Shown: positions 17,243-61,993 of the stretch, piece after piece | Position numbering within the stretch: position 1 is the stretch's first letter | How the letters are laid out: every line of letters starts with the position of its first letter | NCBI GenBank assembly: GCA_016125215.1 | Contig: WGMF01000012.1 | Coordinates: 1-64,000, forward strand | Direction: 5' to 3' | Origin: Phycisphaera sp. | Lineage (GTDB): Bacteria > Planctomycetota > Phycisphaerae > Phycisphaerales > Phycisphaeraceae | Length of the DNA stretch: 64,000 bases | The notes under the pieces: model-generated | Database searches by the model: none | What the model saw: only the letters and a program-made list of their open reading frames with translations | What the model was told of the DNA's origin: nothing | Translations under genes and position numbers: made by a program

Positions 17243-17316
17243 GCACCCGTAGCTCAGCTGGATAGAGCGTCTGCCTCCGGAGCAGAAGGTCAGAGGTTCG
17301 AATCCTCTCGGGTGTA
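17243..17316 (+). tRNA. tRNA-Arg (anticodon CCG)
   Basis: A 74-nt cloverleaf. The acceptor stem GCACCCG pairs with CGGGTGT (first pair G-U), with discriminator A. The anticodon stem TCTGC/GCAGA holds loop CTCCGGA, so the anticodon is CCG. The T-loop GGTTCGAATC is canonical. CCA is not encoded. Its 3' 27 bases overlap the antisense end of an integrase remnant, marking a likely attachment site. Confidence 0.95.
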
Positions 17317-17649
17317 CTTGACGATTCTTTTTACGAGCCATGTCCTTGTCCTTTCCAGACAAAGAGTTGTGACGAGCCTCCGGCAACGTGACGGAGAGCC
17401 TTTCCTAGTTTTTGCCCAAGCGGTCTTCTTCTGGCCGCTTTCGGTCATATGCTTGGAATCCACATGGACCATTGTCCGACTGAGGTCGGTGACAAGAGTG
17501 TGCACATAGCCCATCGTGATTTTTATGTCGCGGTGCCCCGCGAATTGCTGCACCTGGACCAGCGGCATCGCACCCCTGTTGGCCAGAAAACTCAGACAGG
17601 TGTGACGTAGTGTGTGCAGCGTGGCCATCCCACGCCGCGTTGCCGACAC
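17290..17649 (-). pseudogene. Tyrosine recombinase (integrase) C-terminal remnant at tRNA-Arg
   Basis: Only about 119 residues remain. They keep the second half of the catalytic domain: HTLRHT (box II His/Arg), AGHRDI (His) and MGYVHT (Tyr nucleophile). The N-terminal core-binding domain and box I Arg are missing. The tail ends in KYTREDSNL, which is the antisense reading of the tRNA-Arg 3' end, the usual sign of an integrase gene lying over its own attachment core. The upstream edge meets a truncated sulfatase at about 17649. It is the scar of an integrated element that has been largely lost. Confidence 0.85.
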
Positions 17650-18062
17650 CAGGCTGCGTAAGTCCGCTGCGGGTCCGTGGCCTGGTACATGTCCTCGGGC
17701 AGGGTCGGGATGAACTCGTCAAAGCCCAGGCGATCGCCGTAGGGATTGCAGTGGAACTTGCCGACGTGGAACGTGTGATACCCATGCGCTTGCAGCGACC
17801 GTGGCAGGCTGGGCGTGTGCTCATCGAACAAGCCGGTGAACCCGTACTGACGATGTGTGCGGACATACTGACCCGACAGGATGCATGCCCGGCTGGGCAG
17901 GCGGAAAGTGTTCTGGGTATAGGCGTGCGTGAAATCGATGGCCTGCGACCGCAGGCGATCCAGGTTGGGCGTTATCACATCGGGTTGACCGCGGAAGCCA
18001 AAGTTCATGTGATGCCACTGGTCGGCCATGATTAAAAGTATGTTCGGACGCTTGTGGCCCAT
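17650..18062 (-). pseudogene. Truncated sulfatase relic with mutated catalytic cysteine
   Basis: About 138 residues of a type I sulfatase N-terminus are readable: RPNILLIMADQWHH (metal Asp) through ATDPQRTYAAW, then homology stops at the integrase remnant. The formylglycine motif reads R-L-P-S-R at about residue 54; the codon is CGC where TGC (Cys) would be expected, a single transition that would inactivate the enzyme. Full-length sulfatases have about 450-500 residues, so three quarters are missing. It lies downstream of the XylR-type gene on the same strand and may once have been its target. Confidence 0.85.
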
Positions 18063-18216
18063 GCCGATCGGTTCTTGTTTGATTGCGTGATGATGTATGC
18101 CCGGACGCGATTGCCTGGACATCGCGCGGGCAAACATCCACACTTTCAAAACGGATGTCGAGTCACGGTCGACCATTGTCAGGGTAAACGTGCATACGCG
18201 CCGCGGCCTTGCCGGG

Positions 18217-19380
18217 TCATTTGCCGAGGATTTTTTTGCGGTATTGATTGGGGCTCATGCCCAGCTCGCGTTGAAAGACCTGCGCCAGGTTGGCGGACGT
18301 GTTGAACCCGGTGGCCTGTGCAACCTGACGGACGAGGAACTGTTCGTCGCTGAGCATGCGCTTGGCCAACTCGATGCGGAGTCTTCGTACTTCATCCCCG
18401 ACCGGCCGACCCAACGCCTGCTTGAACCGGCGTTGGAGTGTGCGGGGTGAAACCGCCAGGGCATAGGCAATCTGTTCCACGACAAGATGCTCGGCCGGGT
18501 GGCTTGAGATGTATTTCAACGCCTCGGCCACGACATCGTCTTCTACCGCGAAGAAGTCGGTCGACTCGCGCGTGATGATGCCCTTGGGCGGGACGATCAC
18601 ACGCCTGTCGCCCAGTTGTCGGCCGGTCATGATCCGGTCCAGCAGCGACGCCGCTTCGTATCCAACCCGCTCGTAATTGCAGTCCACGCACGTGATCTGC
18701 GGTGGGAACTCCAGCACCGTGCGGGTGTCGTCGATGCACATCACAGCCACCTGCTGCGGCACCCGCCAGTCTCGGTTCTCGCAGAGCGTGATCAGCATCC
18801 TCGCCGCCCACGGCAGGATGGTCAGGATCGCCACCGGCGGCGTGAGACGATCGAGAAACGGCTCGAACTGCTCGCGTGCCAGCAGCCAGTAATCCGGGAT
18901 GTTGTGCGTGCCCGAATCGACATGCTGCTTGTCGCACACTCGGCCCCACTCTTGGACCGTCTGGGAAAAGGACTCGCCCATCGCTCGGTAATGGGGCAGG
19001 TCATCCATGCCTAAAAACGCCAGCCTTTGGAACCCGCGTTCCATCAGGTGCTCAGCCGCCATCTCACCGGTGCGTCGAGTGTCAATGTAGGCCCCGAACA
19101 CATCGGGATCGTCCACCATACCGCCCATGGTGTTGACGAAGGGCAAGCCGAGTTCTTCATACTGTCTGACACGCTCGAGATTCCCGCGTCCGATGACGCC
19201 GTCGTAACGCCCGTAGGACCCGACCGGATTGACAAAGGATTTATCCGGCCGTTCGTCGATGATGCATTTCCAGCGCGGATGCTCGCGCGAAAAAGCATGC
19301 ACCCCCGCAAACACACCCTGGTTCTGCGGGTAAGGCAGGTCGATCCGAAGGGCGACGGCAACTCTGAAGCTATCCTGCAT
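18217..19380 (-). CDS. XylR-family regulator: sugar-binding domain plus AraC-type HTH
   Basis: The protein has 387 residues. Residues about 5-270 resemble the LacI/periplasmic-binding-like sensor domain of XylR (DGVIGRGN, FLGMDDLPHYRAMG, VAVMCIDDTR, GYEAASLLDRIMTG). Residues about 285-385 are an AraC-type double helix-turn-helix (YALAVSPRTLQRRFKQALGRPVGDEVRRLR and GFNTSANLAQVFQRELGMSPNQYRKK). Such proteins activate sugar-utilisation genes on binding a sugar. It is divergent from the PEP-CTERM cluster (372 bases to the first ATG) and reads towards the sulfatase relic, so it could govern both sides. Confidence 0.92.
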   Translation of the reverse strand: MQDSFRVAVALRIDLPYPQNQGVFAGVHAFSREHPRWKCIIDERPDKSFVNPVGSYGRYDGVIGRGNLERVRQYEELGLPFVNTMGGMVDDPDVFGAYIDTRRTGEMAAEHLMERGFQRLAFLGMDDLPHYRAMGESFSQTVQEWGRVCDKQHVDSGTHNIPDYWLLAREQFEPFLDRLTPPVAILTILPWAARMLITLCENRDWRVPQQVAVMCIDDTRTVLEFPPQITCVDCNYERVGYEAASLLDRIMTGRQLGDRRVIVPPKGIITRESTDFFAVEDDVVAEALKYISSHPAEHLVVEQIAYALAVSPRTLQRRFKQALGRPVGDEVRRLRIELAKRMLSDEQFLVRQVAQATGFNTSANLAQVFQRELGMSPNQYRKKILGK

Positions 19381-19751
19381 TTTTATGCCGCCAAACCCAA
19401 AATTGTCATCATTCCATAATACTTTGGCATGAAAACTAAATCAAGGTGGGTTATCCTGTCAACGTGCAATAATTGCGTCCCCTCTGGAGAGCGCCTATAT
19501 CACTTGAAGAAAAGCACCTGAAACCTGAGGCCCCGCCCATATCGGTAAACGGGTCCAGCCACAACCTACTCACCTTTCAGGACCGTGCTTTTTTCCCATT
19601 TCCATGAACAGGAGGACCATGATGAATCGCACGACACAGCACAGGTAGCCTGCAATACTCCGACGGCCCCCGTGGCCAGACACGACCCAATGAGATGGAC
19701 TTCCACAAGCCTTTTTTATCCGCCATCATTCATTCATGCAGGAGAACAAAG
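19381..19751. other. Divergent regulatory region between the XylR gene and the PEP-CTERM cluster
   Basis: This 371-base gap contains no gene. AT-rich sequence lies near 19405-19480 and could hold the divergent promoters. A terminator-like hairpin (19510-19594) and the first copy of a duplicated leader (from 19678) follow before the first PEP-CTERM gene. No XylR operator could be pinned down by eye. Confidence 0.6.
19510..19594 (+). terminator. Terminator-like hairpin with T-run in the PEP-CTERM leader
   Basis: The left arm AAAAGCAC-CTGAAA (about 19510-19523) pairs with TTTCAG-gac-c-GTGCTTTT (about 19575-19592), leaving a three-base bulge and a loop of about 50 bases. A run of six T follows directly (19589-19594). 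No plus-strand gene lies upstream, so it may attenuate transcription entering the PEP-CTERM cluster. The long loop makes it atypical for a plain intrinsic terminator. Confidence 0.4.
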
Positions 19752-19757
19752 ATGACA
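19678..19757 (+). repeat. Duplicated leader, copy 1 (ahead of PEP-CTERM gene 1)
   Basis: AGACACGACCCAATGAGATG and the following bases to CCACAAG (19678-19709) are identical to 20482-20513. Similarity then continues through a TCCGCCA-CATTCATGCAGGAGAACA stretch into the start codon. The Shine-Dalgarno CAGGAGAAC is part of the repeat. Confidence 0.9.
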
Positions 19758-20483
19758 CTCACCGCGAAAACTTTTCTCGCTCTCGCCACCGCCGTCGCCT
19801 TCGTCGGATCGGCACACGCCGCGACGATCAACGTGAAGTTCAACGGCGCTGGCGCTGCGGCTTCGACAACGACCAATCCCGGATACGGCCTCTGGGACCA
19901 GGGAACGCAGACTTGGAATGTGATTAACGCTTACTCTGCAACGAACATGGTCGATTCAACCGGCACCACCACAACCGTTGGTTTCACCTTTACGGTCAGC
20001 GCAGGTGCTAGTGTTGGCAAAGGGACTCAAAGTTATGGCGACGATCAGATCCAGACTGGCGGCATTTATGGTGCAAGAGACACGGGGCAAACTTCGAATT
20101 TCACCCTCACAGGATTGAGCCTGAATACACCGTACGAAATCCTCGTATACATGGATGGCGCAAATACAGGCTTCGCAGCTTTCGCATGGGGCCCAACCTC
20201 TTTCCAAGGCGTCAACCCCAGCGACTACACCGGCTCGTTGAACTCAACCGGCACCGATGTCTATGTCGATGCGTATGACAGCCCCACCAATGCAAACAAA
20301 GCAGACTTCTGGTACTGGACCGGTGTCGTTGCCGACGGCAGCGGCAAGGCCGCGCTCGTCATCAATGACCCTAGTTGGGATGTCATCACGGCGCTGCAGA
20401 TCCGTGAAGTCCCCGAACCGGCCTCGCTGGCGCTGCTGGGCGTGGGCGGCCTGTTGATCGGCGCACGCCGTCGCCGTGCCTAG
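19752..20483 (+). CDS. PEP-CTERM sorting domain protein 1
   Basis: The protein has 243 residues. The signal peptide (about 1-23, ends AHA) is MTLTAKTFLALATAVAFVGS. The C-terminus is a complete PEP-CTERM tag: VPEPASLALLGVGGLLIG followed by ARRRRA. Exosortase systems recognise this tag and process the protein for export to the surface or matrix. The ectodomain (about 24-215) is Thr/Gly-rich, probably a beta sandwich, and unlike those of the two neighbours. CAGGAGAAC lies six bases ahead of ATG 19752. It is the first of three tandem PEP-CTERM genes; no exosortase is encoded in the window. Confidence 0.93.
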   Translation: MTLTAKTFLALATAVAFVGSAHAATINVKFNGAGAAASTTTNPGYGLWDQGTQTWNVINAYSATNMVDSTGTTTTVGFTFTVSAGASVGKGTQSYGDDQIQTGGIYGARDTGQTSNFTLTGLSLNTPYEILVYMDGANTGFAAFAWGPTSFQGVNPSDYTGSLNSTGTDVYVDAYDSPTNANKADFWYWTGVVADGSGKAALVINDPSWDVITALQIREVPEPASLALLGVGGLLIGARRRRA

Positions 20484-20556
20484 ACACGACCCAATGAGAT
20501 GGACTTCCACAAGACTTCTTAATCCGCCAGCATTCATGCAGGAGAACATAGATGAA
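20482..20556 (+). repeat. Duplicated leader, copy 2 (ahead of PEP-CTERM gene 2)
   Basis: This is the second copy of the 19678 leader, starting within the stop codon region of PEP-CTERM gene 1 and ending at the ATG of gene 2. The first 32 bases are identical; the rest differs by a few substitutions and a short deletion. Confidence 0.9.
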
Positions 20557-21340
20557 ACTGACCGTGAAAACCCTTTTCGCTCTCGTCGTCGCTGTCGCCT
20601 TCGTCGCCTCGGCCAACGCCGCCACGATCACCCAGATCGTGCCGTTCAACCCGACCACCTACTTCAGCGGCGGGATCACGGCGGGCATAGATTTTGATGT
20701 GGATTCCAGCGGTGACCCGGGAGCGCAATACGTCACCCAGGCCGGCTTCCTCAGCGTGCCAGCGACGACTGCTAAATCCTACAACGTGACACACAATGGG
20801 ATCACGTTCGACATCACGACGACCAACGCCAATCAGTTTAATGCGAATCGCTGGCGTGCCAATGCCACCGCGGGAGACCTGATGAACGACTTCGTGCAGT
20901 TCTACGGTGACGGTTATACCACGACGGGCAATGCCGTCACGGCTACAGTAAGCCTCACCGGGCTTCTTCCCAATACCGACTATGACGTGAGCTTCTTTAC
21001 GTACAACGTTGGCTCCGGCCAAGTGACCCACACGTTTTACGAAGGAACTTCCGCATCAGGCACTCCACTCACGACGTTCACCACTGCAGGCAGTCAGACG
21101 AATTTCACCACATGGAAGCCCGGCATCAAATTCGGCCTCAAGTCCAACGCCAATGGCAGGATTGACGTCACGGTACAGGCGAACGAGTTTTTGAACACCA
21201 GCGGGCCTAACAACGGGAAATACGGCTCCCGGCTCACCCTTGACGGGATCGCGGTGAACGTCGTCCCCGAACCGGCCTCGCTGGCGCTGCTGGGCGTGGG
21301 CGGCCTGTTGATCGCCGGCCGTCGTCGTAACTCATCATGA
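20552..21340 (+). CDS. PEP-CTERM sorting domain protein 2
   Basis: The protein has 262 residues. The signal peptide MKLTVKTLFALVVAVAFVAS ends near ANA (residue 23). The tag VPEPASLALLGVGGLLIAG plus RRRNSS closes the protein. The ectodomain has Asn/Thr-rich beta-type sequence (TVSLTGLLPNTDYDVSFFTY near 130-150) suggestive of a fibronectin/jelly-roll-like fold and unrelated to that of gene 1. Leader, signal peptide and C-terminal tag are nearly identical to those of gene 1 at the DNA level while the middle is different. CAGGAGAAC precedes the ATG. Confidence 0.93.
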   Translation: MKLTVKTLFALVVAVAFVASANAATITQIVPFNPTTYFSGGITAGIDFDVDSSGDPGAQYVTQAGFLSVPATTAKSYNVTHNGITFDITTTNANQFNANRWRANATAGDLMNDFVQFYGDGYTTTGNAVTATVSLTGLLPNTDYDVSFFTYNVGSGQVTHTFYEGTSASGTPLTTFTTAGSQTNFTTWKPGIKFGLKSNANGRIDVTVQANEFLNTSGPNNGKYGSRLTLDGIAVNVVPEPASLALLGVGGLLIAGRRRNSS

Positions 21341-21393
21341 TTGACTTGGTTGTTAATTTTTATTTTTCTTCAATTTGAATCAGGAGAAGATCC

Positions 21394-22104
21394 ATGAATC
21401 TAACCACAAAAACCCTACTGGCTTGCACCTTCATAGCCATCTTCGTCGGCTCGGTAAACGCTGAGATTATTGCGTTGTACAACTTTGAAGATGTCACGCC
21501 ATACGCTTCGAAAGATACATCGAGCGTGACTGCTACCGACCTGAGCGTTGGCGCGGATATGAACGTCGGCGTCACCGCGATCTGGCTTCCCGGGATCGCC
21601 ACTGCTGCAGAAACAAACAACACGACTGAGTATTTCCGTTACAGCTACCAATCGCTGGTCGATGACGTTCTATTCGATAGCGACACGTTGACTTTTACGG
21701 TCACGCCGGGCGGTGGTGAATCTCTGGATTTTATCTCGCTGACTTTCGATGGCATCAATTACACGGGTGGCGCAGGTGTCTCGCACTACATCTACTCGAC
21801 ACTTGTGGACGGCACGATCGATAATTCCACGACCGATAGGATCGGTACCTTCCTGGTTCCCGGTGGTAGCAATAGTACTTGGTCGTCGTTCAACCTCGAT
21901 CTGAGTGCTTACACGGATATTTCTGTTGCCACAACATTTCGTATTGAGCTTTTCACCACAGGTAACTCCGGTGGGAACTGGAACGGTATCGACAACATCA
22001 CACTGAACGCCAATGTGAACTCTGTTCCCGAACCCGCTTCGCTGGCGCTGCTGGGCGTGGGCGGCCTGTTGATCGCCGGCCGCCGTCGTCGCGCCTTGGT
22101 TTGA
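21394..22104 (+). CDS. PEP-CTERM sorting domain protein 3
   Basis: The protein has 236 residues. The signal peptide MNLTTKTLLACTFIAIFVGS ends near VNA (residue 24). The ectodomain starts EIIALYNFED and is Ser/Thr/Asp-rich, resembling concanavalin/laminin-G-like secreted domains of this class but not assigned with certainty. The tag VPEPASLALLGVGGLLIAG then RRRRALV ends it. The Shine-Dalgarno CAGGAGAAG is well placed. The 50 bases coding the tag core (22026-22075) match genes 1 and 2 even at silent positions. Confidence 0.93.
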   Translation: MNLTTKTLLACTFIAIFVGSVNAEIIALYNFEDVTPYASKDTSSVTATDLSVGADMNVGVTAIWLPGIATAAETNNTTEYFRYSYQSLVDDVLFDSDTLTFTVTPGGGESLDFISLTFDGINYTGGAGVSHYIYSTLVDGTIDNSTTDRIGTFLVPGGSNSTWSSFNLDLSAYTDISVATTFRIELFTTGNSGGNWNGIDNITLNANVNSVPEPASLALLGVGGLLIAGRRRRALV

Positions 22105-22185
22105 ACCTCCTCCTCACGGTACTGCATGCTGAATAGGATGCGGTGCCTTTTAGTTCGGTTTCACCCAACTTTCGGGACCACGAAC

Positions 22186-23115
22186 ATGCGTAAAGCCACA
22201 CGCCTTGCCGAGCGACTCGCCGCGGGTAAGCGAGCTTTTACGCTTCTCGAACTTCTTGTGGTCGTCACCATCATCGTGCTGCTCGTGGCGATCCTGATGC
22301 CGGCGATCGGCGAGGCTCGCTACAAGGCCAAGGTGCTCAAGTGCAAGATGGTCCTGCGCGGCATCGCGGTCGCCATGACCACTTATACCCAGGACTACGC
22401 GGGATATTACCCCACCGCTGCTCGACCCAATACGGACCTGATCGACTGGTCGGCTGGCGCCGACTGGCCAAGGTCCTGGCAGTGGCTGAAAAACACCCCC
22501 ACGACGCGCGACCTGCGTGATTCGTACCGTGAATACCTCGGGGGCACACTCGATCGCACCATGAAGTGCCCGCTGGCCACCCGTTTTTTCGCAGAGGGCG
22601 ATCTCGATAACCACACCGGCCCGGACAACCCCGACAAAGTCCAGTTGTCTAACTACATGCTCTATGTGACCAACAATGCCAACCAGAAGATTTTCAGGTT
22701 CTCGACCAGTGACCCCAATGTGGTGTCCTCGCGAGTGAACACTCTCTGGTCGCCCCACAATCCCGTGGGGTTGAAGTTCGGCTACCTGGCGTCCGATGTG
22801 GCGTTCGGCAATCTTAACTACGGCGGTACAAATTACTTCAGCGCCGGGACTGTCGCAGGCCACCCCTCACCCCAGGGCGACTATGGCGAGGGCGGCGGAC
22901 CCATCAATTCCCATCCCGGGCACCGACTGGGTATCCCCCCACTGTTCTACCCACCGGACCCCACACTGGCCCCCGCGCCGATTAACTTCGTCGATGGCGA
23001 CGGCAGTGTTCACACGTTCAATGTCACCAATCGGTCTATCAATGACTCGGCCACATGGGCCATCAATAGCAATAAAAACGACAGGTACCTGATGCCCAAA
23101 GCCCTGGCGAAGTAG
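22186..23115 (+). CDS. Type II secretion-like pseudopilin (prepilin N-terminal methylation domain)
   Basis: The protein has 309 residues. The prepilin peptidase site and hydrophobic helix are clear: KRAFTLLELLVVVTIIVLLV at about 16-35, with Glu at the fifth position after the cleavage point. The long C-terminal domain ends with PINFVDGDGSVHTFNV, the H-X9-DG-type tail found in many planctomycete pseudopilins. These proteins are abundant in the phylum and are thought to form pseudopili or surface fibres. ATG 22186 gives the short basic leader. It follows PEP-CTERM gene 3 by 81 bases on the same strand and may share its transcript. Confidence 0.92.
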   Translation: MRKATRLAERLAAGKRAFTLLELLVVVTIIVLLVAILMPAIGEARYKAKVLKCKMVLRGIAVAMTTYTQDYAGYYPTAARPNTDLIDWSAGADWPRSWQWLKNTPTTRDLRDSYREYLGGTLDRTMKCPLATRFFAEGDLDNHTGPDNPDKVQLSNYMLYVTNNANQKIFRFSTSDPNVVSSRVNTLWSPHNPVGLKFGYLASDVAFGNLNYGGTNYFSAGTVAGHPSPQGDYGEGGGPINSHPGHRLGIPPLFYPPDPTLAPAPINFVDGDGSVHTFNVTNRSINDSATWAINSNKNDRYLMPKALAK

Positions 23116-23383
23116 TCCTCAAATGTGTGCGATAACTCTGTCGCTGACCCGCGAAACAAAATGGCCCCGACGAACAGTCCTGCCCGAACGCCGGCGCATC
23201 GGGCGGGCCGGTGATCCATAAACAGATCATAGCGGGCATCGCGCAGGGAGGGGTGCCGATCATGCTTGCCCAGCTCTGCGCGGATCGGATCATGCACATC
23301 ACCTCAAAAAATGAAGCGTGATGATCGAGCGTTTCCTGTGAAATCAATGGCCAGATCGATGCGGACAATAAAGGAGCATGTGG

Positions 23384-26300
23384 ATGCGGACATTCTGTTA
23401 TGAACACCGGATGGGGCTTGTGGTTGCCGCGATCATGGCCGGCCTCGCCGGTGCAGGGGTACGGGCAGCCGACCCCGGGCAAGACGGGAGCGCGGGCTAC
23501 GCGGTGACGTATTCCCCGCACATGCAAATCCGGGACTGTGCCATGAACATGGGCCCGACCGGCGCACGCGCGTGGATGCGAGGCTACCAGTTCGTGGTCA
23601 CGCAGATTCAGGAAGACTCACCCGCCTGGCAGAAACTTGAGTTGGGCGACGTCATCGTCGGCGCGAATGGCAAGATGTTCAATGCAGAGACGAACCACCG
23701 CAAGCTGCTGGGCGATACGATCGGCCAAGCCGAGGTGTCGGGCGATCCGTTACGGCTGGATATGCTGCGCAAGATGAAGCCGATGGTTGTCGTACTTGAC
23801 CTGCCCAAGCTGGGCGGCTTTTCACCGACATGGCCCGACCGCTGCGACAAGTCCAGAATCCTACTCGAGCACGCGTGTCAAGCGTTGCTCGACGTGCAGA
23901 CCTCAGCCGGCCTGGTGGGATCGGACTCCAACTTCGGCAGCTACAACGCGGGCCTGCTCTGGCTTGCATCGGATGACCCGAAGTACCTCGATGCCGCGAG
24001 ACGCTGTGCCTACAACGCCATGACGCACGACTACACGAAAGACATGAACAGTTGGAAGCTGGGCTACGGCCTGATCCTGATGTCGGAGTATTACCTGGCA
24101 ACGGGAGACGACACGGTGCTCCCGACGATCCAGCAGTGCGTCAAGATCACCGAGTCGGGGCAGATGGTCTGCGGGTCATGGGGGCACGGCGCACCGGCGG
24201 GCGGTTACGGCGCGCTGAACCAGGCGGGCCTGGCGTGTACGCTGGGTTTGGTGCTGGCCAAAGAAGCCGGGGCTCAGGTCGATGAATCGGTCTTAAACAA
24301 GGCGCTGGGTTTTTTCAGGCGGTTCGCGGGTCTGGGGTGCGTGCCCTACGGCGACCATCAGCCCTGGCCGGGACTGGGCAGCAACGGCAAAGACGCGCTG
24401 GCGGCTGTGCTCTTTCACGTTGAGGGAGAAGACGAAGTCGCGCGGTTATTCGGCCAATCCGCGGGCGACAGTTATTTCGCACGGGAGCAGGGCCACACCG
24501 GCGGGTATCTCTCGATCATGTGGGGGCCGTTGGGCGTCGCCGCCGCCGCGCCCGAAAAGCTGCGGACGTTTCTTGATTATCAATCGTGGTATTACAACCT
24601 GATCCACGAATGGTACGGCGGGATGGTCCTGCTGCCCTACTTTGAGGCGCTCAAGCGATTCGATGGCAGTGCCTACATCGATGGGGGCAATGCGTTCTGC
24701 ACCGGCGGCCTGGCCCTGGTCTACACCTTGCCGATGAAAAAGCTCCGTATTACCGGGGCACCGCACAGCGTCTTCGGCATCGACGCCGACCTGACAGGCC
24801 AATTGAAGGAAGCCCGCGATCATTATGTCGCTCGCCGGTGGAGCCAGTGCGATCAGACGCTGGCCTCGATCGATCCCGCCACACTCAAGGACGAGAAGCA
24901 GTTGCGCTGGTTCGTGCAGCTCAAGTCGGCGCGTGCGTTTACCCACAAGGCCACGGCCTACCTGGCGGGTGAGATCATCTCGAACATGGATAACGGCGCG
25001 CCCTACCACGCCAAGTGCCAGCTCGAAGCGCTCCAGACCGCGATAGGCGCAAGCGACGACCCCGACATCGCCCGCGCCGCGGAGCGTGTCGGCCGTGAGA
25101 GCGATCAGTGGCTGATGAAGGGCGGTGAAAAGGTCGCTGATGTCGTGAACAATCTCGAGTCTCTCACCCCGCAAACCTGGTATCCGGAAGTCGTCACGCT
25201 TCGAAACAAACTCAACGGCACGCCCTCCATGAGGCCGACGTATTGGGTGCCGCTGGTGCCGACGTTACAGAAGACACCACCCACGTGGAAGAGCAAGCTC
25301 TACGAACCCGCGGCACCGCTGGACGAAGGCTGGTACCGGCCCGGCTTCGACGATAACTCGTGGAATAGTTCAGACCAGGGCATCTACACGCGCTACCAGG
25401 CCAAACGGGGCGAGCCGAATACTAACGGCCCGCTCGCTGCGCGGTGTGTTTTCGTGATTGATAATCTCGACGACCTCAAAGGCGCACACTTCCGCGCACT
25501 CGTGCAATCCGTCCGGACCACCACGACACGGGTCTATCTCAACGGTCAATTGATTGTCGACATCGAGCGGGGTCAGCGCGGCGGCTACGCAAAGGTCCCT
25601 CTGAGGGACAACGTGTTCGAGCTGCTCAAACAAGGCCCCAACGTGCTGGCGGTCACCACACAGAGCCAGGGCACCGGCAACAACCGGATCGACGCAGGCC
25701 TCGACTACACCCACCGCTGGCTCTTGCCGGCCCCCCGTCCCGTTCACCATGCCCAGACGATCGACCCGCGGTACCTGCCGCAGGATGTCGACACGTCCAT
25801 GATGGTGCAGAATGCGGAGGAGGACTATCGTGAGGCCATCACGAAGTCGTACACGGATCAACCCATCGACACACTGCTGGGCGAGATGGGTAACGACCTG
25901 GTGTTCTACAGGATCATGGTTGCCCAAGGCATAGCCGGCAAAGGTCGTGAGGCGATCGTGACGGCGCTATCTAAGCTCGATGACCCGGATTGGCGCGTCC
26001 GCGCCACCGCTGTACGAACGATGATCGAAGCACAGAAGGTCTATGAGAATCAGAAGGACGGAGCGGGCATAGCGTTCCTGAAGGAGCAGTTCCCGCTGAT
26101 CGAAAGACGACTTGAGGATGAAGACCCGTGGATCAGGAACCTGGCGTGTCAGGTGTTCACGCCTTACGGGTCGAGCGCCAAGCAGGTCGGGCCACAGTTG
26201 GCCAAGGTTGCCGTGGACCCGGACCCCTGGGTGCGTGAATCCGCGGTCGAGGCCATGAACAAAGTCGGCGTTGCAAGTGAAGTCATGCTCGATGCTTTGA

Positions 26301-26737: not shown

Positions 26738-26812
26738 GTCACCCGTCTCTGAATCGACATGGGATGGATGCTCATACCCAGCACACCCAACCGCTCGCCG
26801 GTCGCTCGTAGT

Positions 26813-30768: not shown

Positions 30769-30838
30769 AGGCTTCTCGTTATCTTCCCGGGTTATCGATT
30801 CGTGCGTTTGTGAGTCGGCCTCTGCGAATTGTCGTGGA

Positions 30839-32305: not shown

Positions 32306-32341
32306 CGCGTCCTTTCCACCGTGTCGCGTAGGCATTCTTCA

Positions 32342-34663
32342 CTACCGGGCAAGACTAACGCACCGAGACACAAGCGGCAACGGGTATGCGGTGATCCACA
32401 CCGCGCTTTGAAGTTGGTCGGCTGCACATTCTTTGAGGCCAAGCAGCACCACCTCGATCGGCTTGCCCGCCACATGTTTATCGAGCGGGATGAAATATGT
32501 GTAGTTGCTTCCCCGGTTGACATGGCATTGCCAGAAATTGCACGGGTAGGCCGCCGCCCGCCGCGCAGCGCCGAGATATCGATTGCCACAACGTGCCGCT
32601 GCGTAAACCGCCTCGGGGACATGCGGCCCGAGCACGGGCACCGCAAGGAAGCTGCCCGCATGGATTTCGTCAATGGTCACCGCCGACGACCACGCCACGG
32701 TCGCGGGGAAGTTGTGGGCAAAGAGGTTGCTCGCACGCCAGTGCGTCCGATCGAGCTTACGGCCTTTGTAAGAGCCCCATGCTTCGTTGATCCGTTCCGG
32801 GCCTTTTCGCAGTCGTACATAACGCACGGGATGTCCGACGTTGATCTGAAAATGGATATCGCCCTCAGCGAATCCTTGTATGGGGGTCCACGACTTGAGG
32901 TCCGCCGAGACCGCCGCCCGCACCGCTTCGTGGTTGTTGAGGGGTTGGAGGTTGTAGTCGCCATCGGTCTGCAGGGTCAGGTGGTCGATCTCGACCGCCC
33001 GACCAAAGTCGATGCGAAGCGACCCGCCACGGATGCGCATCTCCCCTCGACTCCGGCTGACCGAGAAGAAGGTTTCGGGATCGCCATCGAACATGTAGCG
33101 GTCCCACACGCCGCGCTTGCGGAACGCGTCCTGCCGGAAGAACGCGTCACGGGCGTCCTGCACCGCCGCGATCTTCGTCGGGCCACTGCGCATCATCTCA
33201 CGCACTTCCAACGCGTTGTTGCCCGCGGCAAAGCAAGTCGCTTCGTACAACGCATCGGCGTCGGCGGGCACGTTGGTTTTTTCAAGCGTCGCCAATCTGC
33301 GATGCCACGATTGCGAGATCGGCTCACCCTCGAACTCTATTTCGATGCCTTGCGGTGTCAGTAAACCATCAGCCGGTTCGCCTTCGAGTGTGGCTGAAGA
33401 ATAACCATCCGCCTCGATCCGTACGCACGCCTGCGTGCCGGGCAATCCCCAAAGACGCAGTTCCGCCGACTCGCCCGGCTTGTCGCGGATAATCTGGCCA
33501 TCACAACCGTGGAAACCGATCTCCGAACTCCCCTGAGTCGTGACCATCACCAGACACGCACGAAACGGATCAACCGTCACCTCCATCGTTTGGCCCCAGG
33601 CATATTCACCCAGCACACGCTCCAAAGGGAACATCCGTCGAACCCGGGCATGATCAGCTTTTGTCAGACCAATCGTTTCATCCAGCTTCACCGGAATCGT
33701 GATCGGCTCCCATGTGAGATTGCGCAGCGACACAAACCGGGTATGCCCATCGCCCCGACTCACCGCGTCCCGGCCATAGATCGCTTCGGGCAGCAGCATG
33801 CCATCGACAAGGATGTCGCGGTATCGGCGGTGCAGGTTGAAGATGCGCGCGAGGCGGGGGAACTCGTCGTCGCGCAGCAGCCACGGGTTGCCGTAGATTT
33901 GTGGCGCGAGGATCAGACTGCGGTTGAACGCCTGCTGGATCAGCGAGTCGTCCCAGTGGTCTAAAGAGCTGGACAGACACACGCCGTGGTCTTCGGTCAG
34001 GCGTTGCAGGTTCGGCGGCAGTCCGCGACTGATTTCCCACACACGGTTGTGCGTGCCCGGCACGTGATTGGGGCCGTAGACGTCGGTATACATCTCCATG
34101 CCCTCCCACAAGAACGTCGTGGCGTGGGGCAGGCCCTCGCCAAGTTCCAGTCGGTGGTTGAGCAGGATCAGGTCCGGGCAGTGCTGGCGACACCGGGACA
34201 TCATCTCGATGAAATACTTGACCTTCTCCGGCCGCATCGTGCCGCAGACCGAGTCGAACTTGAAGAGCATGAAGTTGTGGTCACGGCAGAGGCTGACCAT
34301 CTGCTCGATGCGCTCGCGGGCCTGTTCCTCGGTGTCGCCGAACCCGTCGGGCCCGCCCCAGATGCCCAAGCGACACCCGAACTGCGCCGCGGCCACGACC
34401 ATCGGCCCAAAGCCTCGTGGGAACTGGCGATTGAACCGTTCGCTCTTCACCGAACCAAAAAAACCCGCGCCGTCGATCGCGCCGGCATCGAATGCGTAGA
34501 TATCCAGCTTCATCCCAAACGTGTCGTACATCCACTTGAAGAACGCAAGATTGATGAGCGTCTGCCGCTCGGTCGCCCCTTCATTGTTGTTGTTGACCCA
34601 ACTGAAGTACTGCGCCAGAGAGGGCGTGCCTTCGTCGGCACCGGGATAGAGGGTGTTGCTCAT
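32342..34663 (-). CDS. Putative glycosidase with clan GH-D-like barrel and C-terminal carbohydrate domain
   Basis: The protein has 773 residues. Residues about 30-300 look like a (beta/alpha)8 barrel: LDIYAFDAGAIDG, FGCRLGIWGGPDGFGD, and FMLFKFDSVCG, where Asp137 in KFD sits where the nucleophile of GH36/GH27-type enzymes is found. The middle part is beta-rich. A discoidin-like domain lies at about 530-640 (SLRIDFGRAVEIDHLTLQTDGD, RYVRLRKG). Assignment to one GH family is not possible by eye. No signal peptide is seen. It is the first gene of the four-gene operon and probably defines the substrate, a galactoside-like sugar being one option. Confidence 0.75.
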   Translation of the reverse strand: MSNTLYPGADEGTPSLAQYFSWVNNNNEGATERQTLINLAFFKWMYDTFGMKLDIYAFDAGAIDGAGFFGSVKSERFNRQFPRGFGPMVVAAAQFGCRLGIWGGPDGFGDTEEQARERIEQMVSLCRDHNFMLFKFDSVCGTMRPEKVKYFIEMMSRCRQHCPDLILLNHRLELGEGLPHATTFLWEGMEMYTDVYGPNHVPGTHNRVWEISRGLPPNLQRLTEDHGVCLSSSLDHWDDSLIQQAFNRSLILAPQIYGNPWLLRDDEFPRLARIFNLHRRYRDILVDGMLLPEAIYGRDAVSRGDGHTRFVSLRNLTWEPITIPVKLDETIGLTKADHARVRRMFPLERVLGEYAWGQTMEVTVDPFRACLVMVTTQGSSEIGFHGCDGQIIRDKPGESAELRLWGLPGTQACVRIEADGYSSATLEGEPADGLLTPQGIEIEFEGEPISQSWHRRLATLEKTNVPADADALYEATCFAAGNNALEVREMMRSGPTKIAAVQDARDAFFRQDAFRKRGVWDRYMFDGDPETFFSVSRSRGEMRIRGGSLRIDFGRAVEIDHLTLQTDGDYNLQPLNNHEAVRAAVSADLKSWTPIQGFAEGDIHFQINVGHPVRYVRLRKGPERINEAWGSYKGRKLDRTHWRASNLFAHNFPATVAWSSAVTIDEIHAGSFLAVPVLGPHVPEAVYAAARCGNRYLGAARRAAAYPCNFWQCHVNRGSNYTYFIPLDKHVAGKPIEVVLLGLKECAADQLQSAVWITAYPLPLVSRCVSLAR

Positions 34664-34739
34664 ACGGCCAGCACTTCTTTTCTATTTTCATAACGCCACG
34701 CGGACCCGACCTCGGCGAGCACATCGGTTCCCGGCTATG

Positions 34740-35015
34740 GCAGTACACCAACAAACAGTTGAGGGGGGCACCTTGATTGTTGTCACCGCCGCTAAGCATC
34801 GCCCAGCCGACTTCGACATCGGTATCCCAGTCGCTGCCGGTCGGAGTCGGTGGGTTACTGCCCAGCTCTTCGGGCGTAACGATGACATACATCGTGCCGG
34901 TCATCGAGCCGGACGTGATGTGGCTATTGATCAGGACAACCGCGGCGTTGGCTGAGGCCACCAACGCGGCGGCGGCAACCGTGGCCGCGATCAGGGTTTT
35001 CGCAGTTAATTTTAT
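34740..35015 (-). pseudogene. Dead PEP-CTERM-type exported protein gene
   Basis: Reading the minus strand, IKLTAKTLIAATVAAAALVA then SANAA is a signal peptide almost identical to those of the PEP-CTERM genes at 19.7-21.4 kb. The start codon is ATA (35013-35015) where the others have ATG. A CAGGA motif remains just upstream. The following ectodomain (VVLINSHITSGSMTGTMYV to about DNNQGAPLN) loses its character after some 80 residues and no PEP-CTERM tag follows; the frame then runs into the glycosidase gene. It is start-less and truncated, and therefore not functional as it stands. Confidence 0.75.
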
Positions 35016-35361
35016 TTTCCTGTTGCTTGAGAATGGTTAAAAAGCTGTCCGTTACGTGATAAGTGATCCACCAAACTTAACGCTCGATAGACTACACCAC
35101 GAACAGCCTCAACGCTAGATAATATTTGAAATGATTTGTATAATTTTAACTATTCAAAAATTTGGTGTTGGAGGGGAAGAGTATCCCACATGACCCGAGC
35201 GATCCGGCAGGACGATCTACTGTGCTCACTTATCGTCTCTGCGTGAGCGTTTACGAAAGCCGATCAATATTTCGCCTGTCATCTGCTTGAAAAACAGGGA
35301 CTGGAAGGTTCGTTCGTTGAACCCACAAGCGACCGCGATGCGTACGGTGCCCATGGTGGTA

Positions 35362-36511
35362 GTGGTCCCCGTCATAAATAATGCAACAAAACGATCAGTG
35401 GTACGTTGATCGGGTATGAGAAGAGCGACCCCGATCGTGCTCGATGACCGGCAACGCCAGGAACTCGAGCGCCTCAAGCGCGGCAAACGGGTGTCCGTGC
35501 GTCTGGCTCAACGCTCGGCGATCGTGCTGCACGCGGCCGATGGGCTGGATAACCAGCAGATCGCCGCGGCGATGGACATCTCACGGTTCAAGGCCGGTCG
35601 CTGGCGGGAGCGCTACGCGGCACACGGGTTGGCGGGAATCGAGAAGGACGCGCCACGACCCGGCCGGCACCGTCGCATCGATGACCAGCAACGCGCCACG
35701 GTGGTCCGCAAGACATTGAAGCAGACGCCCGAAGGCCAGACGCACTGGAGCCGATCGACGATGGCTAAGGCGACGGGGCTGAGTGACTCGACTATCGGGC
35801 GTATCTGGCGTGAGCACGGGCTCAAGCCGCACCTCGTCCAGACATTCAAGCTCTCCACCGACCCGCAGTTTGTGGAGAAACTCACGGACATCGTGGGGCT
35901 GTACCTCAATCCCCCGGAACACGCGATCGTGTTCTCATGCGATGAGAAGAGCCAGATCCAGGCGTTGGATCGCACGCAGCCCTCGCTGCCGATGAAGCGT
36001 GGGCGTGCCGGGACGATGACGCACGACTACAAACGTGGGGGCACCACGTCGCTGTTCGCGGCGTTGAACACCCTTGACGGCTCGATCATCAGCCAGTGCC
36101 ACAAGCGTCACCGACACCAAGAGTGGCTCAAGTTCCTGAACCTGCTCAAACGGCAGACGCCCGAGGGTGTCGAGGTACATGTGATCTGCGACAACTACGC
36201 GACGCACAAGCACCCGAAGGTCCAGGCGTGGGCCGCGAAGAATCCTAGGGTCCACTTCCACTTCACGCCGACGGGCGCGTCGTGGCTGAACATGGTGGAA
36301 CGGTTCTTCCGCGACCTGACGGATAAGGCGTTGCGGAGGGGCAGCTTCTACAACGTCTCCGACCTGGTGGGGGCGATCGACGAATACATCAACGCCCACA
36401 ACGCCGACCCCAAGCCGTTCATCTGGACCGCCTCGGCCAACGACATCCTCGCCAAGGTCAAACGGGCACGGAGGGCACTGGATAAGTTGTAGACTGTTGG
36501 GCGGGGACCAG
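35362..36511 (+). mobile_element. IS630-family insertion sequence, 1150 bp, TA target duplication
   Basis: The ends are short inverted repeats: GTGGTCCCCGTC at 35362-35373 and CTGGTCCCCGCC read inward from 36511. TA dinucleotides at 35360-35361 and 36512-36513 are the target duplication expected for IS630/Tc1-like transposition. It contains one intact transposase gene. It lies inside a XylR-type regulator reading frame. Confidence 0.9.
35416..36492 (+). CDS. IS630-family transposase
   Basis: The protein has 358 residues. An N-terminal HTH (about 28-75; QQIAAAMDISRFKAGRWRERY) and a winged second HTH (about 100-140) precede the DDE nuclease domain. The catalytic triad is visible as Asp176 (SCDEKSQIQALDR), Asp259 (VICDNYATHKH) and Glu295 (SWLNMVERFF). 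The frame is full length and uninterrupted, so the element may still be active. ATG 35416 lies 54 bases inside the left end. Confidence 0.96.
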   Translation: MRRATPIVLDDRQRQELERLKRGKRVSVRLAQRSAIVLHAADGLDNQQIAAAMDISRFKAGRWRERYAAHGLAGIEKDAPRPGRHRRIDDQQRATVVRKTLKQTPEGQTHWSRSTMAKATGLSDSTIGRIWREHGLKPHLVQTFKLSTDPQFVEKLTDIVGLYLNPPEHAIVFSCDEKSQIQALDRTQPSLPMKRGRAGTMTHDYKRGGTTSLFAALNTLDGSIISQCHKRHRHQEWLKFLNLLKRQTPEGVEVHVICDNYATHKHPKVQAWAAKNPRVHFHFTPTGASWLNMVERFFRDLTDKALRRGSFYNVSDLVGAIDEYINAHNADPKPFIWTASANDILAKVKRARRALDKL

Positions 36512-37008
36512 TAGTTATCAGGAGGTCATTGACGGCTCCCAGTCGAGTCTCTTGAATCTTTTGATGGGGAGTCGTTCCCAGTACCGCCTTGAACCGTCGG
36601 CCCAGGGTGCAGCGGTTAGCTGATCTTCGAAGTGGAGGATCACCCCGTCGAGTTGCCGTGGTGGATTCGCCGGGTCGAGGATATCCTCGGTCATAACCGT
36701 CAATCGGGACGATGCCGACGAGCAAACTCGCAGAGCCCGACGAAGCCTTCACGCAGGCCCCGTCTGCCGTAATGCGCCAACATGATCAATTTCACCAGGA
36801 TCGCCCATACGCCTGCTTACTATTAACACAGAATAATACAAAATATTTAAATAAACATACACGGTTTCTGATTAGAAGTGCTAATCTCAGACGTTGTTCC
36901 GGTGCGGCCGGGTCTGTCACCTGGGTTGTTGCACCAGCGGTGACAGCCCGTGTGCCTCGTTACGGACGCCGATCCGTACCCAGACGATCGCTTGAGAGAG
37001 AACTAATC

Positions 37009-39618
37009 ATGTGTTATCCGTGCAAGATCGCGCTGTATTGGGTCATCCTTCTGACATGTCTGTCGGCCCTCTATCCAGTGAATGCGGATGAAGCCGCTTT
37101 GCCAACCCCGACGGACTGGCAGGAGCCCATTATTTCGAATCGACCTGTCGAGTGGACATTGGGTCCGACCGGCGCGTCGATCACATTGATCTCCAAGCCA
37201 GCCGAGGATCCCAACAACGAGCAATACGCGCTTCGTGTGAAAACCATTGAGAAGGGAACGCCGGCGGACGGCGTGCTCAAGACTGGCGACATCATTCTTG
37301 GAGTGGTCTCACCCAAGCCGGGTGCCAATATCAAGGTCTATCCCGTGGACCCGCCCCAAACCGTCATGCGTAAGCAATACGCCGCGGCTTTCACCCAAGC
37401 CCAGACCGAAGAAGGGCGCGGCGAACTGGTGTTGAACGTTTCGCGTGATGGCAAGACGATGCCTGTGACGCTGAAGTTAAAGGTTTGGGGCGGTTTCAGC
37501 GACACCTCGCCTTACGACTGTCCCAAGACGCAGGCCCTCATCGACGCGGCGTGTGCGGACATTCTTCAACGTGGTTTTTTCAACGAAAAAGGCGATGAAA
37601 ATGGGGGCATCCCATCGCTGCTCGACGCCCTGGGCTTACTGGCCACCGGCCAAGCCAAATACCTGCCTGCGGTTCGAGAGTACGCCCACGCGATCGGCGA
37701 TCCGAACGTGAAACTGGATATCGAGAACTCTTCGACCTGGTTCTGGTCGTACAAACTGCTGTTTTTAACCGAGTACTTCCTGGCGACCAGCGATGAGTAT
37801 GTTTTACCTGCCATCGACGAGTACGCGACGAAGATCGCCTTGGGCCAGAGCGGGGTGGGCACGTGGAGCCACGGCATGGCCAAACCGTCGGAGAACGGCG
37901 GCAGGTTCTACGGCCACCCATCGAGCTACGGGGCAATGAATCAATGCAGCCTGACCTGTGCGATCGGGCTGGTCCTGGCTCAAAAGTGCGGGATCACGAA
38001 CGACACCGTCAACGCGGCCGTCAAACGGTCCATCGACTTCTATCGCTGGTACATTCACCACGGGGGCATCCCATACGGCGACCATGAGCCCACGATGGAT
38101 TACAACAACAATGGCAAGGATGGCCAGACCGCGGTTTTCTTCAACCTCATCGGTGACAAAGAAGGCACCCGATTTTTCAGCAAGATGGCGCTATCGGGTT
38201 ACCCCAAGATGGAATCCGGGCACACCGGCCATTTCTTCAACTCACTATGGAGCACGCTGGGCGCTTCTCAAGGGGGACCCAAGGCTATACAGTCCTTTGC
38301 CGAAAATACCCGGTGGCTCACCGAGTTCGAGCGAGGTGCCAACGGCGGCTCGCAATACCAGCAAAGCCCCTATAAGAACGGCGAACACCTGAAATACATC
38401 CGCGGGCTGGACTCGGGCAACCGTGTCGGCTGGAGCACGACCGGCGTACGCCTGCTGCATAATTGCCTGCCCCGCCAAAAACTTTTTATCACCGGACGGG
38501 GTGGCTCTTGCATCGAACAGTTCGACGATGAAGCGATTGCCTCGACCCAACTGGCGGCCAACTTCGATCCCAAGCAATACCGTGTGCCCCAGCTTTTGGC
38601 GCTGTTGAGTCATTGGTCGCCGGTGTTGCGGATGCAAGTGGCCCAGGAACTGAGTGAGCGTGACCAGAACGTCGTCGAAGAACTGCTAGCCATGTTGGAC
38701 AGCCCGGACCCCACCACGCGCTACGGGGCGTGCGTCGGGCTTCAATTTGCGGGCAGACAATCGCCCGAAGCCGTCGATAAATTGCTGAAGGTCGTTCGCG
38801 ACAGTGATGACTTTACGATGCGCTACTTCGCTGCGATGGCATTCCGCATATCCCGTGTGCATGTGCCCGGACGATGGGAACAGGTCAAAAACGGTCTGGT
38901 CACGCTGGAGAGCAAGAACGAAAAGATTACCCATGCTCTGCTCAAACTCGCCTCGCAATACGAGCCGGATAAAGACCCGCAGCAGAGATTACAAAACCTC
39001 ATCGCGGCAACCCTGTTCTATAAAGGCTCGGTGCAGCCATATACCGGTTACTTACCCAATGGGGAAGGCCTAGAGAAAGTAGATCGTGATGTGCTCATCC
39101 CAGCGGTCAAACAATTGCTCAAAAACCCCAATGCCTATGCCCGTGGTTCCACCTCACGCATCTACGACAACCTGACCGAGGACGACCTCAAAAAACTCTG
39201 GGGTGATATCTACTATGCCACCAAGTACGAAGCGCCCAGCGGCACTATGGCAGGCGGTGTCCCGCGAGAGTACGGCGTCAAGCTTATGGCCAAGCGCCGA
39301 GTCAAAGAGGGCATCGATGTCACGATCGAATGGGCCTTCGGGCAACCCGGCTGGGGCCTGGAACAACGGTTGAAACCCGGCGTCGAGGCGCTGCTGCTCT
39401 ACGGCCAACATGTGTCACCCCTCCTGCCTCAAATCCATGACATCGTCGAAGCCCACGCCACGGGTGTGAACCTTGTGGCCCGAAGGAATGTCGACACTTA
39501 CAGGCAGTATTTCGAGGACCTCAAGGCCAGGCTGACCAACGTCAACCCGGAGCTGGTCAGCATCCAGCCGTACATCGACGCGACACCCGATCCGCTCAAG
39601 AACCAGGACAAGCCATAA
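37009..39618 (+). CDS. Giant exported PDZ / alpha-toroid / HEAT protein (DUF6288-type), copy 2
   Basis: The protein has 869 residues. The signal peptide spans about 1-25 (MCYPCKIALYWVILLTCLSA, ending VNA). Next come a PDZ-like domain (about 50-145; LRVKTIEKGTPADGVLKTGD), an alpha/alpha-toroid part (about 165-480; WSHGMAKPSENGGRFYGHPS, GGIPYGDHEPTMDYNNNGKD) and HEAT-like repeats (about 520-640; DPTTRYGACVGLQFAG). It is clearly paralogous to the protein at 23384 in domain order and in motifs such as PYGDH and SGHTGHFF, but has no jelly-roll insert. ATG 37009 is set by the signal peptide; the frame is open back to 36712 through the pseudogene. AT-rich sequence near 36815-36880 may hold its promoter. 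Confidence 0.87.
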   Translation: MCYPCKIALYWVILLTCLSALYPVNADEAALPTPTDWQEPIISNRPVEWTLGPTGASITLISKPAEDPNNEQYALRVKTIEKGTPADGVLKTGDIILGVVSPKPGANIKVYPVDPPQTVMRKQYAAAFTQAQTEEGRGELVLNVSRDGKTMPVTLKLKVWGGFSDTSPYDCPKTQALIDAACADILQRGFFNEKGDENGGIPSLLDALGLLATGQAKYLPAVREYAHAIGDPNVKLDIENSSTWFWSYKLLFLTEYFLATSDEYVLPAIDEYATKIALGQSGVGTWSHGMAKPSENGGRFYGHPSSYGAMNQCSLTCAIGLVLAQKCGITNDTVNAAVKRSIDFYRWYIHHGGIPYGDHEPTMDYNNNGKDGQTAVFFNLIGDKEGTRFFSKMALSGYPKMESGHTGHFFNSLWSTLGASQGGPKAIQSFAENTRWLTEFERGANGGSQYQQSPYKNGEHLKYIRGLDSGNRVGWSTTGVRLLHNCLPRQKLFITGRGGSCIEQFDDEAIASTQLAANFDPKQYRVPQLLALLSHWSPVLRMQVAQELSERDQNVVEELLAMLDSPDPTTRYGACVGLQFAGRQSPEAVDKLLKVVRDSDDFTMRYFAAMAFRISRVHVPGRWEQVKNGLVTLESKNEKITHALLKLASQYEPDKDPQQRLQNLIAATLFYKGSVQPYTGYLPNGEGLEKVDRDVLIPAVKQLLKNPNAYARGSTSRIYDNLTEDDLKKLWGDIYYATKYEAPSGTMAGGVPREYGVKLMAKRRVKEGIDVTIEWAFGQPGWGLEQRLKPGVEALLLYGQHVSPLLPQIHDIVEAHATGVNLVARRNVDTYRQYFEDLKARLTNVNPELVSIQPYIDATPDPLKNQDKP

Positions 39619-61789: not shown

Positions 61790-61826
61790 TTCAATGATCC
61801 CACTGACCGTAACGCCGACCCGCGGG

Positions 61827-61900
61827 GTGCCACTGGCGGCTCGTCCGCCAGTGAAAAGACCGTACGTTTTGAGCACTGGCGGACAAGCCGCCAGTGGCAC
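61827..61900. repeat. Double palindrome CACTGGCGG element
   Basis: Two copies, GTGCCACTGGCGGCTCGTCC (61827 onward, to GCCAGTG at 61853) and its inverse 61873-61900. Each copy is itself a near-palindrome; together they form a long inverted repeat with about 19 bases between. It resembles REP-type elements. A further hairpin (GTGACCC/GGGTCAC) follows at about 61934-61967. Confidence 0.87.
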
Positions 61901-61993
61901 ACCTTGGCTTCACACACGCTTTCTTACTGGACGTGACCCCCACTCGCTTCTACGCTTGCGGGTCACGAGACACTCACGCAAAGGATTCACGCC

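Follow-up and report, generated by a model that had tools for sequence, protein, structure and literature searches.

A XylR, PEP-CTERM and prepilin gene cassette and DUF6288 proteins at two adjacent, probable polysaccharide loci of Phycisphaera sp.

Introduction

Planctomycetes degrade many polysaccharides. The stretch of DNA analysed here, 64,000 nucleotides long and referred to below as the window, belongs to a planctomycete genome of 4.04 Mb in 58 contigs, that of Phycisphaera sp. (window address G000:C12:1-64000). From 17.6 to 39.6 kb it carries a XylR-type regulator gene, three PEP-CTERM genes, a prepilin-like gene and the gene for a giant DUF6288 protein (giant A), followed by genes on the opposite strand, gene relics and a second DUF6288 gene (giant B). 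The subject of this work is the group of genes that heads the first locus, and its relationship to the two giants.

The closest described systems each resemble part of this arrangement. The SusC/SusD polysaccharide utilization loci of Bacteroidota hold a regulator, surface capture proteins and enzymes in one locus. The same three kinds of gene are found together here, but with a PEP-CTERM protein and a prepilin in place of SusC and SusD; neither SusC nor SusD was found among the window genes scanned, although no genome search aimed at them was made. The xylose operon regulator XylR of Escherichia coli (PDB 4fe4/4fe7) has the same two-domain layout over residues 33-381, whereas here there are dozens of diverged paralogues, adjoining PEP-CTERM and prepilin genes. 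The regulators of YSIRK-targeted surface antigens (TIGR04094) are likewise of AraC type and adjoin the gene of a sorted surface protein. They differ in that YSIRK-type antigens are anchored to a Gram-positive wall; moreover, TIGR04094 matches the helix-turn-helix (HTH) part of our XylR at 2.9e-14, far under its cut-off, and the model gives no match to the sugar-binding domain.

Surface sorting by PEP-CTERM and exosortase (EpsH) (Haft et al. 2006, PMC1569441) has in common with the present case the C-terminal sorting motif and the exosortases, which are present in the source genome; the difference is that substrate genes and sugar-sensing regulators come in pairs here. Dextran-binding, pili-like fibres are reported in Planctopirus and Gemmata (PMC5394234). 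These are also planctomycetes, and the appendage is proposed to bind polysaccharide, as is proposed here; they belong to another class, and the portion of that source consulted does not name the fibre genes. Finally, the (α/α)6 barrels of glycoside hydrolase (GH) families GH76 and GH88/GH105 and of AGE-type enzymes resemble a barrel predicted in giant B, although the likeness is one of predicted fold alone and the giants add PDZ-like and HEAT parts.

In the literature searched, which left most subscription journals outside its scope, we found no paper whose title or abstract describes a cassette of XylR, PEP-CTERM and prepilin, and none on the DUF6288 family. An initial annotation of the window, made from the letters, had stated that no system of its makeup was described, and none turned up. 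The gene clusters for carbohydrate-active enzymes of planctomycetes are stated, in the portion of one account consulted, to be functionally uncharacterised (PMC11131199).

Results

A three-gene cassette recurs in the source genome

The element that recurs throughout the genome is a three-gene cassette of XylR, PEP-CTERM and prepilin, probably concerned with the sensing and capture of particular polysaccharides. A PEP-CTERM gene lies within 3 kb of 25 of the 34 XylR-length regulators (mean under random placement 2.21), and a prepilin gene within 3 kb of 18 of them (random mean 2.1); neither count was reached in any of 10000 placements, a control that uses estimated lengths for 31 contigs. None of the nine shorter AraC regulators has such a neighbour within 5 kb. 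The proposal that XylR and PEP-CTERM belong together is thus well founded. The steady third partner is the prepilin, and not DUF6288.

The geometry is also regular. In most cases XylR comes first, PEP-CTERM second and the prepilin third, the first two being divergent or in tandem. Around 33 XylR genes, and up to 2.5 kb away, the closest PEP-CTERM gene was divergent in 16 cases, tandem in eight and convergent in three; six had none. Divergent gaps range from -58 to 315 bp, most being 100-220, and tandem gaps from 145 to 402 bp, with one of 2460; the prepilin gene follows downstream on the PEP-CTERM strand for 19 of the 33.

The two surface components behave differently. In the first set of stretches taken from the genome, all 19 prepilins group together by similarity, whereas the PEP-CTERM proteins, 36 in number, form one group of 16, two of two, and 16 singletons. 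Such diversity would fit an anchored protein that varies with the substrate. The Verru_Chthon cassette (TIGR02596) was considered and rejected, the prepilins matching its N-terminal motif only, under the cut-off. Glycoside hydrolases (of at least eight families), esterases and sulfatases lie beside the cassettes; one of the scans behind this covered 66 of 71 listed neighbours.

The cassette across the class

The cassette is present across the class in a weaker form, and is expanded in the source genome. Sixty XylR loci were picked by hand among the matches listed for the class. They represent 40 of the 71 genomes, besides the source genome, that had a match, with no more than two loci per genome, each with space left towards the start of its contig. 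A prepilin gene is found at 22 of these loci, a PEP-CTERM gene at 20 and both at nine; in 20 control stretches, placed at round-number positions in 13 of the 40 genomes, the counts are one prepilin and four PEP-CTERM. Expressed as density, prepilin genes occur near XylR at 3.56 per 100 kb as against 0.41 in the controls, and PEP-CTERM genes at 4.01 as against 2.87, so that the class-wide link of XylR is stronger with the prepilin than with PEP-CTERM. Both genes peak less than 2 kb from XylR, where 30 of 32 are either divergent and upstream or co-directional and downstream.

Locus A

The features of both loci are collected in Table 1. XylR-A has a Peripla_BP_3 domain followed by an AraC HTH, the layout of a XylR-type regulator, and matches E. 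coli XylR (4fe7) over its full length at E 2.4e-33; the initial identification of this gene as XylR therefore holds. The PEP-CTERM genes annotated at 19752-22104 are confirmed; there are three, all over the curated cut-off, their C-terminal arrangement of PEP motif, hydrophobic stretch and basic end scoring 26.0, 24.5 and 27.6 bits (cut-off 20.7), and the genome has four exosortase matches (PF09721) over cut-off. A PDB sequence search with the first of these proteins found no match. A structure model of a PEP-CTERM protein was poor (predicted local distance difference test, pLDDT, 35.5), so no fold is claimed.

The 67-nucleotide (nt) leaders of the first and second PEP-CTERM genes (window 19670-20540) are 90% identical, and the regions around their starts are 84% identical over 100 nt. 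This is a recent tandem duplication that takes in the leader, although the middles of the proteins differ.

The prepilin-like gene, which is absent from the initial annotation, carries the prepilin cleavage/methylation motif (TIGR02532), and its N_methyl score of 21.0 is just below the cut-off of 21.2. It was not assigned to a named pilin family: the GspG match (3.8e-9) is below cut-off, as are ComGC and all others tried. It shares its similarity group with 18 further prepilins of the genome.

Table 1. Features of the two loci and of the region between them (window coordinates)
Feature	Position	Strand	Evidence
XylR-A, AraC-type regulator with periplasmic-binding-protein-like sugar-sensing domain	18217..19380	-	Peripla_BP_3 1.6e-25, HTH_18 5.6e-20
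Candidate operator/promoter in the gap that separates XylR-A from the divergent first PEP-CTERM gene	19381..19751	.	position only
PEP-CTERM protein 1	19752..20483	+	PF07589 9.3e-6, TIGR02595 1.4e-5
PEP-CTERM protein 2	20552..21340	+	PF07589 2.6e-5; leader DNA common with PEP-CTERM gene 1
PEP-CTERM protein 3	21394..22104	+	PF07589 2.9e-6
Prepilin-like protein, type IV pilin/pseudopilin N-terminus	22126..23115	+	TIGR02532 21.4 bits (cut-off 16.3)
Giant A: signal-peptide-like start (read from sequence), PDZ-like part, DUF6288, HEAT repeats	23378..26737	+	PF19805 1.6e-91
Fused gene like major facilitator superfamily (MFS) transporter and spermidine synthase	26813-29470	opposite to giants	profile matches
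Sulfatase	30839..32335	-	PF00884 7.1e-47
Large protein, weak F5/8 type C match	32342..34663	-	70% over 132 amino acids (aa) to a C13-locus gene
Possible PEP-CTERM gene relic	34656..35018	-	signal-peptide-like start only
XylR-B relic, 3' piece	35247..35363	-	80% DNA identity, nt 1006-1122 of C13 xylR
IS630-type element, ~1.15 kb	about 35362..36511	+	DDE_3 2.8e-21; intact transposase reading frame 35416-36492
XylR-B relic, 5' piece and internal piece	36511..36816	-	nt 2-176 (79%), nt 904-1010 (76%) of C13 xylR
Giant B: signal-peptide-like start (read from sequence), PDZ-like part, DUF6288 barrel, HEAT repeats	37009..39618	+	PF19805 1.4e-107

Locus B is a decayed relative of another locus

The relevant comparison for the second locus is with one on contig C13, in which a prepilin gene, a XylR gene (L029:12593-13735), a PEP-CTERM gene and two sulfatase genes lie on one strand and a DUF6288 gene is divergent from them. 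The dead XylR gene reported at 35226-36818 is real, and can now be resolved into three pieces. Reading along the gene, these are 36816-36621 and 36617-36511, then an insertion sequence (IS) of the IS630 type, and then 35363-35247; the element thus sits between the last two pieces. Its ends, TAGTGGTCCCCG and CGGGGACCAGTA, are inverted and flanked by TA, and the part of the damage that it caused had not been attributed to it previously. In addition, 727 nt have been deleted, corresponding to nt 177-903 of the C13 gene. The pieces are 71-76% identical in protein to the C13 XylR, while XylR-A and the C13 XylR are only 23% identical.

The supposed dead PEP-CTERM gene (34740) fares less well. Its signal-peptide-like start is present, but the frame runs into other sequence, has no C-terminal sorting motif and no match to a PEP-CTERM profile, and shares just a 12-nt match with the PEP-CTERM gene region of C13. 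Giant B is the sister of the C13 DUF6288 protein (tree support 100/99), with 46% identity over 804 aa. The C13 locus has two more genes with kin in the window, namely a truncated sulfatase at 17592-18176 (82% over 147 aa) and the gene at 32342-34663 (Table 1). B is thus a broken and decayed relative of the C13 locus.

The DUF6288 giants

Both giants match the DUF6288 profile over its full length (A 307.9 bits, B 360.8 bits, cut-off 26.3). The giants already annotated are thereby confirmed as DUF6288 proteins with HEAT repeats, with the start of A moved from 23384 (Table 1). The genome has 17 DUF6288 genes rather than two (19 matches, two of which are second pieces). In a tree of 16 of these domains, leaving out the short C39 gene, A and B fall into different clades, the closest relative of each being on another contig. 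Giant A is the sister of a protein on contig C51 (100/100), to which neither a XylR nor a PEP-CTERM gene lies closer than 10 kb. A and B are therefore distant paralogues, and this, together with the match of the XylR-B pieces to the C13 XylR rather than to XylR-A, makes A and B two independent loci. The idea that they are two copies of one module, for which unrelated phylogenies of the giants had been named as counter-evidence, is rejected by the DUF6288 and XylR trees and the XylR-B pieces. The features on which it was built are present in substance; their grouping into copies is not. The window holds two adjacent polysaccharide or sugar-scavenging loci of separate origin, not one duplicated unit.

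A structure model of giant B (pLDDT 88.7, predicted template modelling score 0.92, from 55 sequences) aligns over residues 137-473 with (α/α)6 barrels. The matches include GH76 mannanases (up to Z 21.2, for 6shm, at 3.8 Å over 283 residues), unsaturated glucuronyl hydrolase (2fv0, Z 19.9) and cellobiose 2-epimerases (up to 19.9), with identities across the barrel matches in the range 8-10%; terpene cyclases score nearly as high (squalene-hopene cyclase 8paj, Z 19.4). Since these scores are ties or near ties, they support the fold, seen in the predicted model of giant B only, and not an activity. The conserved columns of DUF6288 include acidic residues, histidine and asparagine and a GHTG motif; these, with the company of sulfatases, suggest that DUF6288 may be a carbohydrate enzyme. 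The role of exported scaffold first assigned to the giants is doubtful, since the prediction for the conserved domain is a barrel of the kind found in carbohydrate enzymes. The PDZ-like and HEAT parts may serve contacts.

Sequence profiles compared with solved structures matched the HEAT and PDZ parts of the giants and nothing else. Foldseek matches of the whole of giant B to HEAT/ARM structures (query-normalised template modelling scores 0.14-0.27, with large root mean square deviations) were read as helical-repeat noise. An acetylesterase domain, guessed from the letters in two DUF6288 proteins of the genome, is unsupported by Pfam, and a scan of a viral library gave no match under E 0.001.

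DUF6288 is a tenant rather than a partner

Within the source genome, XylR is found within 5 kb of six of the 17 DUF6288 genes, counting relic B (random mean 1.25, reached in 9 of 10000 placements), which is above chance. Intact XylR and PEP-CTERM are both within 5 kb of only three of the 17 (random mean 0.80; 408 of 10000). A sulfatase lies within 10 kb of nine (random mean 3.0; 5 of 4000, from a cruder version of the control).

Elsewhere the association fades. DUF6288 was over cut-off in none of 12 relatives, and at E 1e-30 it occurs in 11 of 148 genomes of the class, the source genome included, with one in the same family. Ten further genomes of the class yielded 26 DUF6288 stretches, which have XylR in four cases, PEP-CTERM in three, a prepilin in two and a sulfatase in four; all three cassette genes occur together in one (L231). 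The survey was then widened to the Planctomycetota-Verrucomicrobiota-Chlamydiota (PVC) bacteria, with 79 loci that are the named records, mostly Planctomycetota and Verrucomicrobiota, from the best 80 of 557 confirmed stretches. XylR was found at two, PEP-CTERM at four, both at one and a sulfatase at 34. This count used a XylR model built from six proteins of the source genome and a C-terminal motif pattern for PEP-CTERM; in stretches of the source genome the patterns recover 33 of 34 PEP-CTERM profile hits and 19 of 20 prepilins, but their sensitivity may differ in Verrucomicrobiota, and the background differs in those phyla. Co-occurrence of the three families outside the source genome, which the initial annotation had named as a check, is thus rare, and a triple unit across PVC bacteria is rejected. 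On the XylR tree, where the long branches C14, C23 and C6 are possibly misplaced, the XylRs adjoining DUF6288 are scattered (six changes for six rows, no clustering). Because of this scatter and the low co-occurrence elsewhere, DUF6288 is best described as a frequent tenant of polysaccharide loci, and not a fixed partner.

Two stretches outside the source genome, L231 (G101:C145:18000-37900) and L096, do have DUF6288 near XylR and PEP-CTERM. The genome G101 by itself contributes 11 or more DUF6288 matches.

Other features of the window

Giants A and B are separated by genes on the opposite strand. These comprise the fused MFS/spermidine-synthase-like gene, a gene without Pfam match, and then, confirmed in the region where a glycosidase/sulfatase operon had been noted, the sulfatase and the weak F5/8 type C gene. 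At 17243-17317 there is a tRNA-Arg gene adjoining a small fragment (17398-17631, minus strand) that resembles the C-terminal end of a tyrosine recombinase; Pfam Phage_integrase scores 0.0051 on a stretch overlapping it. Together with the truncated sulfatase, these form a possible integration scar. A palindromic repeat of ~100 nt at 61825-61927 has two nested inverted arms (fold z-score -8.4) and further copies in seven of the loci retrieved from the source genome, with six alignments in the C13 locus alone. It is a REP-like (repetitive extragenic palindromic) or MITE-like (miniature inverted-repeat transposable element) element. A 6S RNA gene at 12644-12826 is over the Rfam gathering score.

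Discussion

The explanation that we favour, at somewhat better than even chances, is that locus A is headed by the genome-wide cassette and that B is a decayed remnant akin to C13, the whole serving to sense, capture and process polysaccharide. The head of locus A would combine a sugar-sensing XylR with a prepilin-like protein and with one or a few PEP-CTERM proteins that exosortase anchors; an enzyme-like DUF6288 protein comes after them. Sugar freed from a particular polysaccharide would bind XylR, which would then induce the PEP-CTERM and prepilin genes, whether these are divergent from it or downstream, as well as enzyme genes close by. With the surface protein and the fibre subunit the cell would hold or draw in the polysaccharide, to be processed by exported sulfatases, glycosidases and DUF6288 barrels. 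Observed are the gene families, the way in which they cluster and are arranged, exosortases in the genome, a decayed locus B and, as a prediction, the fold of giant B; if our reading is right, there would also be a ligand for XylR, induction by it, binding of glycans, formation of a fibre and catalysis. We thus read the cassettes as sugar-switched surface capture with exchangeable enzymes, DUF6288 presumably among them. In favour of this are the clustering and its regular order here and in the class, the carbohydrate-active enzymes and sulfatases among the neighbours, the four exosortase matches, the separate origins of A and B, and the dextran-binding fibres reported from other planctomycetes (PMC5394234).

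Several points weigh against this. A carbohydrate-binding domain was not established in the PEP-CTERM proteins, where there was one weak F5/8 type C match among ten. Housekeeping genes such as recA and secY are also among the cassette neighbours. In the class, 38 of the 60 XylR loci have no prepilin, and PEP-CTERM genes near XylR, with 27 in 673 kb, exceed the density of the controls (7 in 244 kb) by a factor of only 1.4. Of the HTH_18 regulators in G003 and G005, two relatives with nearly closed genomes, no more than three of 12 and one of 13, respectively, have PEP-CTERM within 3 kb.

It is less likely, though worth considering, that the cassettes do not serve feeding at all, and that XylR reads sugar as a signal to switch PEP-CTERM proteins of matrix or adhesion, and pili, for biofilm formation or attachment. 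PEP-CTERM sorting is known from matrix-forming bacteria, according to the part of the account consulted (PMC1569441), and there are partial NCBIfam matches to the flocculation protein PepA. The glycosidases, esterases and sulfatases near the cassettes speak for feeding instead, and the presence of a cassette at so many of the XylRs suggests many different inputs.

A little less probable again is that the arrangement is a by-product, in which one block of XylR, PEP-CTERM and prepilin was copied many times in a single recent expansion, its order being inherited rather than selected. XylR is indeed far more numerous here than in G003 and G005, and there is the duplicated DNA around the first two PEP-CTERM genes of locus A. 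However, the XylRs have diverged from one another (terminal branches have a median of 0.62 changes per column) and the PEP-CTERM proteins more so, while the geometry still holds, and it recurs in other genera.

The proposal of a three-part system made up of XylR, PEP-CTERM and the giant, in which the giant is an exported scaffold, now looks very improbable: its pairing of XylR with PEP-CTERM stands, and the frequency of XylR near DUF6288 in the source genome and the neighbours at L096 and L231 are in its favour, but DUF6288 as a fixed member is contradicted by the single PVC locus with both partners, the three of 17 genes with intact partners, the unclustered XylRs, the different clades of A and B, and a barrel fold that points towards an enzyme.

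Returning to sugar-switched capture, a bolder form of it can be put forward as a speculation, to which we give perhaps a quarter of our belief. The cassette may be what, as a rule, heads the polysaccharide loci of Phycisphaerae, as the counterpart there of SusC/SusD: a sugar sensor would switch on a substrate-specific glycan binder, anchored by exosortase, and a pilus subunit that hauls in the polysaccharide. There would be one 'fishing rod' per substrate and dozens per genome, with exchangeable enzymes, and DUF6288 may be a new carbohydrate-active family among them.

If true, the cassette of sensor, anchor and pilin would provide a genomic marker for polysaccharide loci, together with direct candidates for capture proteins, and the DUF6288 family gains a testable enzyme hypothesis.

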